Assembly: GCF_007845675.1 (NCBI RefSeq)
Contig: NZ_VOBR01000006.1
Location: 124,001 to 188,000 of the forward strand
Direction: 5' to 3'
DNA: 64,000 bases
DNA from: Lentzea tibetensis
Lineage (GTDB): Bacteria; Actinomycetota; Actinomycetes; Mycobacteriales; Pseudonocardiaceae
Every line of letters begins with the position of its first letter. The first letter of the stretch is position 1. The notes beneath the pieces were generated by a model, which saw only the letters and a list, made by a program, of their open reading frames with translations, had not been told where the DNA came from and searched no databases. Both the position numbers and the translations under genes were made by a program. Of the stretch, positions 47,637 to 51,371 are shown one piece after another.

Positions 47637-47775
47637 GTCTTCCCCGTGGCACCAAGGTTGCCAGTCGCCGCTGACGTTTCGCTGTCGCCGACTGACATCT
47701 TGATCAGAACCCGTTCCCCCGCGCCCGCGGCTGCGCTAACTTGGCGCTACCTGGGGGAAACAGGGAGTACGTGCC

Positions 47776-47807
47776 AACGCTGTTTCGCTGTGAAGCGAAG
47801 CGGCGTT
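47776..47807 (+). promoter_or_regulatory. Stable hairpin upstream of the Cys-rich precursor gene
   Basis: Arms 47776-47789 and 47794-47807 pair over 14 positions in RNA with two G-U wobbles and a GUGA (GNRA) tetraloop. It lies 54 bp before the GTG start. If transcribed it could stabilise or regulate the leader; no promoter position is known. Confidence 0.55.
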
Positions 47808-47861
47808 GTTCGACGTGCGCCCTGTCACGCCTCCAGTCCGAACACGACATGGGGAGGCGAA

Positions 47862-48098
47862 GTGACCAAGACGATTTCCAAGATCGGCGACAAGGTGCTC
47901 GGCCTGTTGCTGAACAAGTCCGACGCGGGTGCCTGCCGGGTGTGCCCCGGCCCGTGCGGCGAGGTGCCCGCGGAGCGCGTCTGCTACCAGGGCCGGGAGT
48001 ACCAGCTCTACTGCCGCGGCATCTACACCTGCGACTGCGGCTGCGTGCCGGACCGCAGCCAGCCCTGTCGCGGCGTGCCGACCGGCCGCTCCTGCTGA
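47862..48098 (+). CDS. Cys-rich precursor peptide of a candidate secreted disulfide-rich peptide system
   Basis: The 78-residue product has a 24-residue, Lys-containing amphipathic leader (KIGDKVLGLLLNKSDAGA) and a 54-residue core with ten Cys at 25, 28, 32, 41, 51, 57, 59, 61, 69 and 78. The leader ends in Ala-Gly-Ala before Cys25, a signal-peptidase-type AxA site, and an S26 peptidase gene closes the cassette. The core has no Trp, so a TTQ-type cofactor is excluded, but it has four Tyr and a net positive charge. GTG 47862 has GGGGAGG four to five bases upstream. I do not recognise the family; roles as an antimicrobial, signal or metal-binding peptide are all open. Confidence 0.8.
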   Translation: MTKTISKIGDKVLGLLLNKSDAGACRVCPGPCGEVPAERVCYQGREYQLYCRGIYTCDCGCVPDRSQPCRGVPTGRSC

Positions 48099-48106
48099 TC
48101 GGTGTG

Positions 48107-48133
48107 ACGGCCGGGGCCTCGCGCCCCGGCCGT
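48107..48133 (+). terminator. Hairpin between precursor and mauE-like gene, possible attenuator
   Basis: A perfect 11-bp stem (48107-48117 with 48123-48133) with a 5-nt loop follows the precursor stop by 8 bp. The downstream bases are TCCCAAG, not a U-tract, so termination would be partial. Such partial hairpins can raise precursor over enzyme levels. Confidence 0.6.
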
Positions 48134-48150
48134 TCCCAAGGGGGAAGATC

Positions 48151-48678
48151 ATGGACTACCTGCAGCTGTGCTGCCGTGCGCTGGTGGGCGTCGTGTTCAC
48201 CCTGGCCGTCGCGGGAAAGCTGCGCGGACGGGCCGAGCTCGCCGCCTTCGTCGACTCGCTGGGCGGGTTCGGCTGGTTCGCACCCCGTGTCCGGCCGTGG
48301 GTGGCCGCCGCGGTGATCGCGGTCGAAGCGGTGACCGTCGTGCTGCTCGCGCTGCCCGGCACCGTGCGCGCCGGGTTCGTGCTGGCCGCCGCGATGCTGG
48401 CCGCGTTCTCCGGCGGCGTCGCGCTCGCGAAAGCCCGCGGCCGCGAGGTCCGGTGCCGCTGCTTCGGCTCGGACGGCGGGCTGATGGGGCGCCGGCACCA
48501 GATCCGCAACGGGCTGCTGTTCGCGGTGTCCCTGCTCGGGCTGCCCGGCACCGCCGCGACGCCCCGGCTCGACCTGCTCGCGCTCGCGGTCGGCGCCGGT
48601 GTGCTCGGCGCGATCCTGCTGGCGCACTGGGACGACATCGTGTTCGTGCTCCGACGCCCGGCCCATCACCACCACTGA
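48151..48678 (+). CDS. MauE-like membrane redox protein
   Basis: The 175-residue protein has about four or five membrane segments and the MauE/DoxX-like signature CRCFGS, with Cys102 and Cys104; a further CC pair lies at residues 7-8. MauE helps form the six disulfides of the methylamine dehydrogenase small subunit in Paracoccus and relatives. Here it follows a Cys-rich precursor rather than a dehydrogenase gene. AGGGGGAAG precedes the ATG. The C-terminal end carries four His in a row, possibly a metal site. Confidence 0.85.
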   Translation: MDYLQLCCRALVGVVFTLAVAGKLRGRAELAAFVDSLGGFGWFAPRVRPWVAAAVIAVEAVTVVLLALPGTVRAGFVLAAAMLAAFSGGVALAKARGREVRCRCFGSDGGLMGRRHQIRNGLLFAVSLLGLPGTAATPRLDLLALAVGAGVLGAILLAHWDDIVFVLRRPAHHHH

Positions 48679-48694
48679 CCCACGGGGGATCGAA

Positions 48695-49225
48695 GTGCTC
48701 GCTGTTCTCACCGCCGCCGTCTCGGCGTGCGTCGTGCTGACCCTGGTCAACCTCGTAGTGCTGTTCGCGGTGGTCCGCCGCCTGCGCGAGCAGCCGCAGA
48801 CCGAGGGACCGCAGATCATGGCCGTGCCGCGCAACACCGCGGTGCTCCCGTTCGAGACCACGACCGCGGACGGCGCGACGATCACCGAGAAGGACGTCTT
48901 CTCGGGTGTCGTCGCGTTCGTGACGCCCTCCTGCGGAGCCTGCAAGGATCTCGTGAACGCGTTGCGCGATCACGATCCCGAGCTCTTCTCACCGCTGCTG
49001 CTGGTCGTCATGGGGGAGCTGACCGACGAGATCCGCGACGTCGTCGCGGCGCTCGACGGTGCCGTCCAGGTCGTCGCAGGCCCGGCGACCACGGCGGTGA
49101 GCACGGCGTTCGGCGGGATCGAGAGCTTCCCCAGCGTCGTCCGCGTCGACGGCGGCGTGGTGGGCGCGAGCGGCGTGCGACTGGACGCCGTGCTGGCCAT
49201 TCAGGTCCCGGTCGGGATGCTCTGA
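48695..49225 (+). CDS. Membrane-anchored thioredoxin-like protein (MauD/TlpA-like)
   Basis: The 176-residue protein has an N-terminal membrane helix (about residues 3-27), a linker and a thioredoxin fold. The active site is Cys80-Gly-Ala-Cys83 in VTPSCGACKDL, and the cis-Pro lies at 146 (SFPSVVRV). MauD with MauE forms the redox pair that makes disulfides in methylamine dehydrogenase. The domain would face the outside. GTG 48695 has GGGGGAT upstream. It is coupled to the ABC transporter gene by TGATG. Confidence 0.85.
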   Translation: MLAVLTAAVSACVVLTLVNLVVLFAVVRRLREQPQTEGPQIMAVPRNTAVLPFETTTADGATITEKDVFSGVVAFVTPSCGACKDLVNALRDHDPELFSPLLLVVMGELTDEIRDVVAALDGAVQVVAGPATTAVSTAFGGIESFPSVVRVDGGVVGASGVRLDAVLAIQVPVGML

Positions 49226-51024
49226 TGCACGGGTCGGCTCTCGCCGCGATCCGGCTCACCTGGCGCGCAGCTCGCGCGGGCACGCTGGTGACCGTCGCGA
49301 TCGCGGCGCTGAGCGGCGCGGCCGTGCCCGTGGCCGGCTGGCTCGCGAAGCTGCTGATCGACGAGGTGGCGCGCGGTGGAGACGTCGACAAGGCGGTCGC
49401 ACTCGCCGTCGTCGCGACGCTGGCGGGCACCGTCGCGGGTGTCCTGACCTACGTCGGCTCGTACGTCACGGCACGCGTCCAGCGGTCGGTGAGCCTGCAC
49501 GTCCAGGACGAGCTGTGCGCGACGACGAACAGCCTGATCGGCCTGCGCTACTTCGAGAACCCGGCGTTCCACGACCGGGTCAGGCTCGCCGCGCAGGCGG
49601 CGCACGGCGCTCCCGGCACCGTCACGGACTTCGGGCTCGAGGTCGTGCGCAAGGTGTTCACGATCGCCGGGTTCCTCGGCGCGATGCTGGCCATCTGGCC
49701 GTTCATGGCCCTGCTGCTGCTGATCGCCGCGATTCCGGCGTTCGTCGCGCAGCTGATGATCGCCCGGCGCAACGTGGAGATGATCGAGGCGATGACCTCG
49801 ACGATGCGCAGGCAGAGCTACTACCAGATGCTGATCACCGAGGGCGACGCGGCGAAGGAGGTTCGCCTGTTCGGGCTCGGTGACCTGTTCCGCTCCCGGA
49901 TGCGCAGCACGCTCGCCGAGACCACCGGCGCGGAGCTGGCCGTGCGGCGCAGGAGCACGATCACCGAAGCCGGTTTCGCGGTCCTCAACGCGGCCGTCGC
50001 GGCAGTCGGCACGGCTGTCGTGGTGGTAGGCGCGATTCGCGGCACCGTGACGCTCGGTGACGTGTCGCTGTTCATCGCGGCCGTGGCGAGCCTGCAGGGC
50101 GCGTTCACGTCGTTGATCATGCAGTTCGCGCGCGTGACCGAGGCGCTGCGACTCTTCCGGCACTACGTCGACCTCGTCGGGTCCACATCGGACATGGCCG
50201 ACGGCACTCGGCCGGTTTCCGCGCTGCGCAAGGGGATTGAGCTGCGCGACGTGTGGTTCCGGTACGACGAGGACGGTCCGTGGGTGCTGCGCGGCGTGAC
50301 GTGCACGATTCCGTTCGGCGCGACGGTCGGACTGGTCGGCGCGAACGGCGCGGGCAAGAGCACGCTCGTGAAGTTGTTGTGCCGCCTGTACGACCCGGAC
50401 CGCGGCACGATCCACTGGGACGGCGTGGACATCCGCGAGCTGACCGTCGCGCAGCTGCGTGAGCGGATCGCCGCGGTGTTCCAGGACTACATGAGCTACG
50501 ACCTGAGCGCGGCCGAGAACATCGGCATCGGCTCGCTGCCCGACCTGGACGACCGCGCCAAGATCCGTTCCTCGGCACAGCTCGTGGACATCGACGAGAA
50601 GATCTCCGGCCTCGCCAACGGGTACGACACGTTGATCAGCCGGATGTTCATCGACCCGTTCGGCGGCGGGGGCGGCGGCGTCAACTTCTCCGGCGGGCAG
50701 TGGCAGCGGCTCGCGATCGCGCGGTCGCTCATGCGGACCGACGCCGACCTGCTGATCATGGACGAGCCCAGCGCCGGTCTCGACGCGACCGCCGAGCACC
50801 GGCTCGGCACGACGCTGCGGGAACGCCGGGCCGGTCGCACCAGCCTGCTGATCTCGCACCGCCTCAACACGATGCGCGACGCCGACGTGATCGTCGTGCT
50901 GTCCGGCGGGCGGATCGCCGAGCAGGGCAGCCACGACGAGCTGATGGCGGCCGACGGCGAGTACTCCGGGCTGTTCCGGCTCCAGGCCGAGCACTACCAG
51001 GACGACCGGGTCGTCCTGCCGTGA
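49225..51024 (+). CDS. ABC exporter (fused permease and ATPase) of the peptide cassette
   Basis: The 599-residue protein has a six-helix membrane domain (about 1-320) and an ATPase domain: Walker A GANGAGKST (about 373), signature NFSGGQ (about 488) and Walker B LLIMDEPSAGLD (about 510). No N-terminal C39 peptidase domain is present, so it exports but does not cut leaders by double-Gly cleavage. It likely moves the precursor out or into the membrane. The TGATG at the start and GTGA at its end couple it to its neighbours. Confidence 0.9.
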   Translation: MHGSALAAIRLTWRAARAGTLVTVAIAALSGAAVPVAGWLAKLLIDEVARGGDVDKAVALAVVATLAGTVAGVLTYVGSYVTARVQRSVSLHVQDELCATTNSLIGLRYFENPAFHDRVRLAAQAAHGAPGTVTDFGLEVVRKVFTIAGFLGAMLAIWPFMALLLLIAAIPAFVAQLMIARRNVEMIEAMTSTMRRQSYYQMLITEGDAAKEVRLFGLGDLFRSRMRSTLAETTGAELAVRRRSTITEAGFAVLNAAVAAVGTAVVVVGAIRGTVTLGDVSLFIAAVASLQGAFTSLIMQFARVTEALRLFRHYVDLVGSTSDMADGTRPVSALRKGIELRDVWFRYDEDGPWVLRGVTCTIPFGATVGLVGANGAGKSTLVKLLCRLYDPDRGTIHWDGVDIRELTVAQLRERIAAVFQDYMSYDLSAAENIGIGSLPDLDDRAKIRSSAQLVDIDEKISGLANGYDTLISRMFIDPFGGGGGGVNFSGGQWQRLAIARSLMRTDADLLIMDEPSAGLDATAEHRLGTTLRERRAGRTSLLISHRLNTMRDADVIVVLSGGRIAEQGSHDELMAADGEYSGLFRLQAEHYQDDRVVLP

Positions 51025-51371
51025 TCGGGTTCCTGCGCAGGCGGTTCATGCTCGTCACCGTGCGCGGCGACAGCATGATGCCGACGCTGCGGCCGGACCA
51101 GCGCGTGCTGGTGCGGCTCGGCAGGCCGTTCAGCGCCGACGACGTGGTCGTGTTCCGGACGGCCGCCGAGCACGTCTCGCTGATGATCAAACGCGTGGCC
51201 GCGGCACCGGGTGAGGCCGTCCCCGACGACATGAGGGACGTCGTCGGGGACGTCGTCGTCCCCGACGGGTTCGTGCTCGTGCGCGGCGACAACCCGCTGT
51301 CCGTCGACTCGCGGACCTTCGGCTACCTGCCCGCCGACGCGGTCGTCGGTCTGGTCAGGACGCCGAAGTGA
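51021..51371 (+). CDS. Minimal S26-type signal peptidase of the peptide cassette
   Basis: The 116-residue enzyme has the SPase I boxes: [10 protein letters not shown] with Ser18 as nucleophile, LMIKRVAA with Lys57 as general base, and [16 protein letters not shown] as the last box. It lacks a membrane anchor, unlike host signal peptidases. It could cut the precursor after Ala-Gly-Ala. It shares GTGA with the exporter, and its 3' end overlaps the convergent rel gene by 17 bp. Confidence 0.9.

Follow-up and report, generated by a model that had tools for sequence, protein, structure and literature searches.

We analysed a 64,000-nucleotide stretch of the Lentzea tibetensis genome (NCBI RefSeq assembly GCF_007845675.1, contig NZ_VOBR01000006.1, positions 124,001 to 188,000), here called the window. 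It contains a cassette of five genes that encode a ten-cysteine precursor peptide, a MauE-family membrane protein, a membrane-anchored thioredoxin-fold protein, an ATP-binding cassette (ABC) exporter and a minimal S26 peptidase. We propose, with a probability of roughly 0.6, that this cassette matures and exports a small disulfide-only peptide as a self-contained unit, in which maturation at the inner face of the membrane comes before export. In the proposed mechanism, recognition of the precursor would rest on the conserved leader, where no Sec-type hydrophobic core is present. The thioredoxin-fold protein would exchange disulfides with the peptide and MauE would reoxidise it. The S26 peptidase would cleave after the AxA motif at the leader end, and the ABC exporter would then release the peptide. 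Both oxidation and leader trimming would take place at the cytoplasmic membrane face, ahead of export.

Gene Content and Boundaries of the Cassette

The features of the cassette are listed in Table 1. A first-pass annotation, made from the sequence alone, had described five same-direction genes with TGATG and GTGA overlaps, and a 78-residue precursor with ten cysteines in its last 54 residues. Both descriptions agree with the sequence; the TGATG overlap lies at 49223-49227 (thioredoxin/ABC) and the GTGA overlap at 51021-51024 (ABC/S26). Its assignments of the four partner proteins (MauE-like with CxC, CGAC thioredoxin, ABC without C39 domain, S26) were confirmed by Pfam, by motifs, and by AlphaFold2 and Foldseek.

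The cassette is gained or lost as one piece. The gene next to it, for peptidylprolyl isomerase, is present in all 25 genomes of the same genus that were searched. RelA lies inside the flank taken in 20 of them. The cassette is found between the isomerase and RelA genes in three, namely the window genome, G267 and G273. RelA was not found near the isomerase in two of the 25 (L167, L173). The closest relative is G193, whose isomerase is 94% identical to that of the window. It aligns with the window up to 47691 and again from 51355, with flanks that are 90% and 92% identical and nothing between them. Because the cassette is absent from G193 as one block, the unit gained or lost consists of the five genes and the upstream region, and this comparison leaves no further modifying enzyme in the unit.

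Table 1. Features of the cassette and of the insert that carries it, in window coordinates. E, expectation value; pLDDT, predicted local distance difference test.
Feature	Position	Strand	Evidence or remark
Precursor peptide gene	47862..48098	+	GTG start, 78 residues, ten Cys
Leader, 24 residues ending AGA	47862..47933	+	Leader profile E 3.8e-4; putative AxA cleavage by S26
Core, 54 residues, ten Cys	47934..48095	+	Five disulfides predicted; pairing putative
GC-rich hairpin between precursor and MauE genes	48107..48133	+	55-nucleotide stretch, -31.9 kcal/mol, z -2.83
MauE-family membrane protein with CxC	48151..48678	+	PF07291 E 1.5e-24; AlphaFold2 pLDDT 93.4
Membrane-anchored thioredoxin-fold protein, CGAC	48695..49225	+	AlphaFold2 pLDDT 90.4; Foldseek DsbE/ResA/TlpA
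ABC exporter (membrane domain and ATPase)	49225..51024	+	PF00005 E 2.6e-27
Minimal S26 peptidase, Ser18/Lys57	51021..51371	+	PF10502 E 8.3e-19
Discrete insert with the entire cassette, between peptidylprolyl isomerase gene and relA	47692..51354	+	Stretch missing from G193 (L159)

The five insert proteins gave no match to a dehydratase, YcaO, radical SAM or similar enzyme in Pfam and NCBIfam. The earlier statement that the cassette has no dehydrogenase large subunit, no modifying enzyme of the type found with ribosomally synthesised and post-translationally modified peptides (RiPPs) and no Trp in the core held in scans of the genome, the insert and the precursor. No immunity, regulator or target gene was seen in the insert. 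A role in anti-phage defence was considered and rejected, the sole matches being the ATPase matches of the ABC exporter.

The S26 gene and relA lie on opposite strands and their 3' ends overlap by 17 bases (51355-51371). The hairpin between the precursor and MauE genes is not followed by a T tract, and it is possibly a partial terminator or an RNA stabiliser. A similar GC-rich inverted repeat was seen by eye at the same site in locus L017. A promoter scan gave no match.

Distribution and Co-occurrence of the Genes

We searched the window MauE against 298 genomes of the family and found matches in 53 of them at an E of 1e-8. Of 76 matches, 60 were taken and 12 were left out, and the remaining four belong to the window, L016 and L017. 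The MauE-chosen set thus has 63 loci (60 plus the window, L016 and L017), and MauE was found by script in 62 of them. L019 stands outside the 62, since the script found no MauE there at an E of 1e-3, though two other searches report one. An ABC gene (E below 1e-100) and an S26 gene lie on the same strand within 4.5 kb in 48 of the 62 MauE loci, and a thioredoxin gene completes the set in 47. When the window and its two orthologues are removed, ABC and S26 accompany MauE in 45/59.

The second set was chosen by the ABC exporter alone and consists of the best 80 of at least 560 ABC relatives. Within 4 kb on the strand, these loci have a thioredoxin in 68/80, MauE in 55/80, S26 in 54/80 and all three in 43/80. 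The two sets overlap, in that L078 is L017 and several further contigs are common to both. The ABC-chosen loci come from Lentzea, Amycolatopsis, Kibdelosporangium, Nonomuraea, Streptosporangium, Actinomadura, Micromonospora, Catellatospora, Stackebrandtia, Kribbella, Nocardia, Streptomyces and other genera. Co-occurrence of the partner genes, which had been suggested at first pass as a check, is conserved in both sets.

In a sample of the phylum, the MauE alignment matched 36 of 296 genomes at an E of 1e-15, and the matches outside the window's family were weaker, except in G320. Judged by the two sets of loci, the cassettes appear to be a broad actinomycete class. The window genome itself has two more cassettes of the class, G000:C13 (L018) and G000:C97 (L019). 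Each has two precursor genes with 8 Cys, and in L018 the S26 gene is on the opposite strand.

Leader and Core of the Precursor Peptides

The window precursor, whose ten cysteines all fall in the last 54 residues and which has no Trp, had no match in Pfam or NCBIfam. Membership in a known precursor family was rejected; weak matches to metallo-beta-lactamase (E 0.0022) and to glycocin (E 0.04) fell far below the cut-offs and were taken as chance. A likeness to a solved structure was also rejected (sequence search, best E 0.72), and a search of plasmids gave one match only, at an E of 0.5. The precursor is rare. Strong matches among the 298 family genomes were confined to the window and two relatives of the same genus, and five further matches were marginal (E above 0.001).

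We built a profile from 42 leaders, with the window and its two orthologues left out; it holds one false seed (L070_77, wrong frame). The profile put the window precursor first among the 916 open reading frames (ORFs) of the window, with an E of 3.8e-4 against 1.1 for the next best. This placing, like the absence of the whole set from G193, indicates more than a chance assembly. At an E of 0.01 the profile gave 122 matches whose cores are 15-100 residues long. They lie in 115 of 143 loci, namely 53/63 of the MauE-chosen set, which contains the seeds, and 62/80 of the ABC-chosen set. The leader consensus is roughly M-x-x-hydrophobic-x-x-LGDRLLxxhVPKxxAxA, and the core follows directly. Most seeds came from a regular expression that found 44 and 53 real matches, whereas reversed ORFs gave 2 and 5, and each of five shuffles gave 0 to 4 per set. 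Its matches include evident false ones (e.g., L096, L108, L147), and the leader-profile counts are used instead.

The two parts of the precursor differ in conservation. Among 46 cluster representatives (clusters at 40% identity), mean identity was 0.38 for leaders, 0.25 for cores and 0.19 for cores minus cysteines. By this comparison, the precursors have a common leader and greatly variable cores.

The number of cysteines was even in all 106 distinct cores and in all 46 cluster representatives, with 4, 6, 8, 10 and 12 cysteines in 14, 33, 43, 15 and 1 of the distinct cores, respectively. The same was true of the ABC-chosen set alone (63/63 distinct cores), where 54 of the 63 were not found in the MauE-chosen set. 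Parity played no part in the choice of cores, and the regular expression behind most seeds needed at least four cysteines. Of the sequence evidence for paired cysteines, this even number across all distinct cores is the strongest. Together with the conserved co-occurrence, it supports the first-pass proposal of a secretion system devoted to such a peptide. The spacing of the cysteines is variable among cores.

We also estimated the ratio of nonsynonymous to synonymous substitution rates (dN/dS). In the sole scorable pair of the window's group, it was 1.33 for the core and 0.16 for the leader. The three groups richest in pairs, with 69, 23 and 12 of them, had core values of 0.33, 0.21 and 0.26, respectively, and the smaller groups ranged from 0.19 to 1.01. 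These values support real coding genes; they do not show diversifying selection.

The hydropathy of the leader over the best 11 residues is 1.11 in the window, and the 46 cluster leaders average 1.04 with a highest value of 2.23; the window leader has no Sec-type hydrophobic signal core. The double-glycine leader and C39 peptidase of class II bacteriocins are not found either, as the leader ends in AGA and C39 is not among the Pfam matches of the ABC exporter.

Redox Proteins, Exporter and Peptidase

The window MauE scored 87.2 bits to PF07291, where the cut-off is 27, and has a CRC motif at residues 102-104. All 38 aligned relatives matched PF07291 at an E of 0.001, and C102 and C104 are among the six invariant residues of that alignment. 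The motif CxCFG was found in 112 of the 117 MauE segments taken. Searches of the PDB gave no match at an E of 0.001 for the AlphaFold2 model, and none for the MauE profile against PDB sequences.

The thioredoxin-like protein has CGAC at residues 80-83, and in a 41-sequence alignment only C80, C83 and P146 are invariant. On its own, the window protein falls under the Pfam cut-offs; the 41 aligned sequences of its relatives match AhpC-TSA (32), Redoxin (26), Thioredoxin (24), StoA (20), ResA (19) and MauD (18; TIGR02661, E 0.01 or better). Foldseek matched its AlphaFold2 model to DsbE (E 4.5e-6), ResA and TlpA. The predicted fold, the CxxC motif and the conserved Pro are those of the ResA/TlpA/MauD-type superfamily.

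MauE and the thioredoxin are fused in twelve loci (L020-L027, L030, L031, L033, L034), where the thioredoxin part has CGPC. The cores of these twelve loci have six Cys and are nearly identical (CVPEHGQCC... or CVPENGQCC...). In L016 (G273, a one-contig genome), a frameshift splits the MauE gene, by decay or sequencing error.

In a PDB sequence search, the ABC exporter was nearest to ABCB proteins and MsbA. The S26 protein scored 68.6 bits to PF10502, where the cut-off is 22.9. Its Ser and Lys, which we take to be the S26 catalytic dyad, are present in 100/106 and 104/106 sequences, respectively, the remainder being gaps. The window protein has no hydrophobic segment ahead of the Ser motif and so lacks the anchor of an S26 signal peptidase. 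A membrane segment is absent from 18 of the 103 S26 proteins with a Ser motif, namely those of the window, the twelve fusion loci and five others, and the fusion-locus proteins begin directly at the catalytic region. Five loci of Nonomuraea and Actinomadura (L083, L085, L089, L101, L118) have a leader peptide, whose core has 4 or 8 Cys, and an ABC gene, with no S26 found nearby. A different peptidase may serve there.

Side of the Membrane

The distribution of charged residues was examined under the positive-inside rule. In 38 MauE sequences, the CxC loop has on average 4.2 Lys and Arg and 0.6 acidic residues, and the loop after helix 1 has 4.9 and 1.6. Lys and Arg number 0 to 0.2 at the N terminus and in the two remaining loops, and 0.8 at the C terminus, which has 2.6 acidic residues. 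By this rule, the basic residues of the CxC loop would place it in the cytoplasm. The thioredoxin anchor has 0.1 basic residues before the helix and 4.3 after it (2.5 acidic). Where the two proteins are fused, the fifth MauE helix serves as the thioredoxin anchor, so both redox centres should lie on one face, whichever face that is. The charge patterns, the fusions and the unanchored S26 peptidase together suggest maturation at the inner face, followed by export, as the simplest reading. The first-pass annotation had placed oxidation outside, with leader removal afterwards; this order is not supported by the same predictions, which favour the inner face.

Several points weigh against maturation at the inner face or against the proposed unit as a whole. 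The CxC loop of Paracoccus MauE likewise has 4 basic residues and 1 acidic residue, and the Paracoccus MauD anchor has 2 basic and 1 acidic after the helix, a weaker pattern. The substrate of these two proteins functions in the periplasm, and the charge rule may therefore mislead here. The cytoplasm is normally reducing. Most S26 proteins (85/103) have a membrane segment before the Ser motif and could act outside. On the strand and within 4 kb, no S26 was seen in 26/80 and no MauE in 25/80 of the ABC-chosen loci. The ABC and S26 set likewise does not accompany MauE in 14 of its 62 loci, which means that the unit is not strict. As for Paracoccus, the small subunit of methylamine dehydrogenase, MauA (L206:4116-4682), has an N-terminal motif that we take to be twin-arginine-like, twin-arginine export being a route for folded proteins. 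The side of disulfide formation is thus equally a question for methylamine dehydrogenase.

The reverse order would have the ABC exporter carry out the reduced precursor, MauE and the thioredoxin oxidise it outside, and the S26 peptidase trim it at the outer face. The AxA motif is the usual one of signal peptidase I, and the proteins whose structures the thioredoxin fold resembles (ResA, DsbE and TlpA) act outside the cytoplasm. The hydrophobic segment in most S26 proteins also agrees with it. However, neither the window S26 nor any of the twelve fusion-locus S26 proteins has such a segment, and the charge pattern of MauE and the thioredoxin is the reverse of that expected. We regard this order as possible, if somewhat doubtful.

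It is unlikely that the redox pair is a reductase that keeps the precursor reduced, with disulfides forming spontaneously after export. The two redox centres could be reductants if both face the cytoplasm, and ResA-like folds are often reductases. For sviceucin, deletion of the thioredoxin gene still gave the product, though only in mycelia (PMC9266682). However, a membrane CxC partner fused to a thioredoxin would resemble a DsbB-type oxidase more than an NADPH-fed reductase. A role of MauE in disulfide formation has been speculated on in the main text of the decRiPPter paper (PMC7794033).

Nature of the Peptide and Comparison with Known Systems

The window core has more than one CxxC or CxC motif, which could also indicate a cysteine-rich metal-binding peptide of the metallothionein or zinc-ribbon type. 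We consider this very improbable, given the regular company of oxidoreductases and an exporter, the even cysteine number over the whole range from 4 to 12 with variable spacing, and the absence of any metal-binding Pfam family in the window precursor and ten others scanned. A remnant of methylamine dehydrogenase maturation, to which the PF07291 match of MauE and the TIGR02661 matches among the thioredoxin relatives could point, was rejected as next to impossible, since the enzyme subunits PF02975 and PF06433 had no match in the genome (the PF02975 search matched the Paracoccus mau plasmid as a positive control; the PF06433 search was without a working control) and the precursor has no significant alignment to MauA (best E 0.16).

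The likeness to MauE/MauD maturation itself is clear in the MauE family match, the CxC motif, the CxxC thioredoxin partner and the similar charge pattern. The cassette differs in that no dehydrogenase was found with it in the genome, and that a short leader-peptide substrate, an ABC exporter and an S26 peptidase are present.

The closest description of such peptides is that of decRiPPter in 2020 (PMC7794033). Its main text lists three Streptomyces candidate RiPP families with mauE, one of them also with mauD. Each precursor has at least 8 Cys, and a role of mauE in precursor modification was suggested; the families are predictions made without experiment. Compared by description only, the window shares with them MauE and a cysteine-rich precursor. 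Those families are from Streptomyces only, and S26, signal peptidase and thioredoxin are unmentioned in that main text. In part, then, the first-pass claim of an undescribed system does not hold, because mauE families with cysteine-rich precursors were already listed there. This was the only paper linking MauE with such peptides that we found, in a literature search that left subscription journals mostly uncovered.

Three other systems have partial likeness, as far as the available parts of their reports describe them. Sviceucin, a class I lasso peptide, has a DoxX-family membrane protein and a CxxC thioredoxin (SviE/SviF) beside a disulfide peptide; unlike the insert, it has a lasso macrolactam synthetase and split B enzymes, and the peptide has two disulfides (PMC9266682). 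The staphylococcal TMcin combines leader removal, a dedicated oxidoreductase and ABC export for a disulfide-only peptide, but has a transmembrane precursor, a DUF3267 protease, a DsbA-type TmcD and one disulfide (PMC13252029). Actifensins, encoded near ABC genes in actinobacteria, are variable disulfide peptides rich in cysteine; in contrast to the window, they have a GA cleavage site, and the words MauE, thioredoxin and peptidase do not occur in the main text (PMC6989792).

Possible Function and Significance

The patchy presence, the one-block presence and the variable cores resemble those of antagonistic peptides. On this basis we would guess that the product acts on other organisms, although the guess could well go either way, and a signalling role is a candidate alternative.

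A wider view may be advanced tentatively. Hypervariable disulfide-only miniproteins might be widespread, being folded by MauE and thioredoxin that face the cytoplasm, trimmed inside by an unanchored S26 peptidase and released folded by the ABC exporter. Possibly the same arrangement would apply to MauE/MauD. We hold this generalisation to be a good deal less secure than a working model.

The leader profile and the four partner genes define the class, and new members can be found mechanically. Its cores form a large pool of miniproteins that are probably stabilised by disulfides. As a single insert, the Lentzea tibetensis cassette offers a minimal test bed for how MauE-family proteins work with a thioredoxin partner, and on which face of the membrane they do so.

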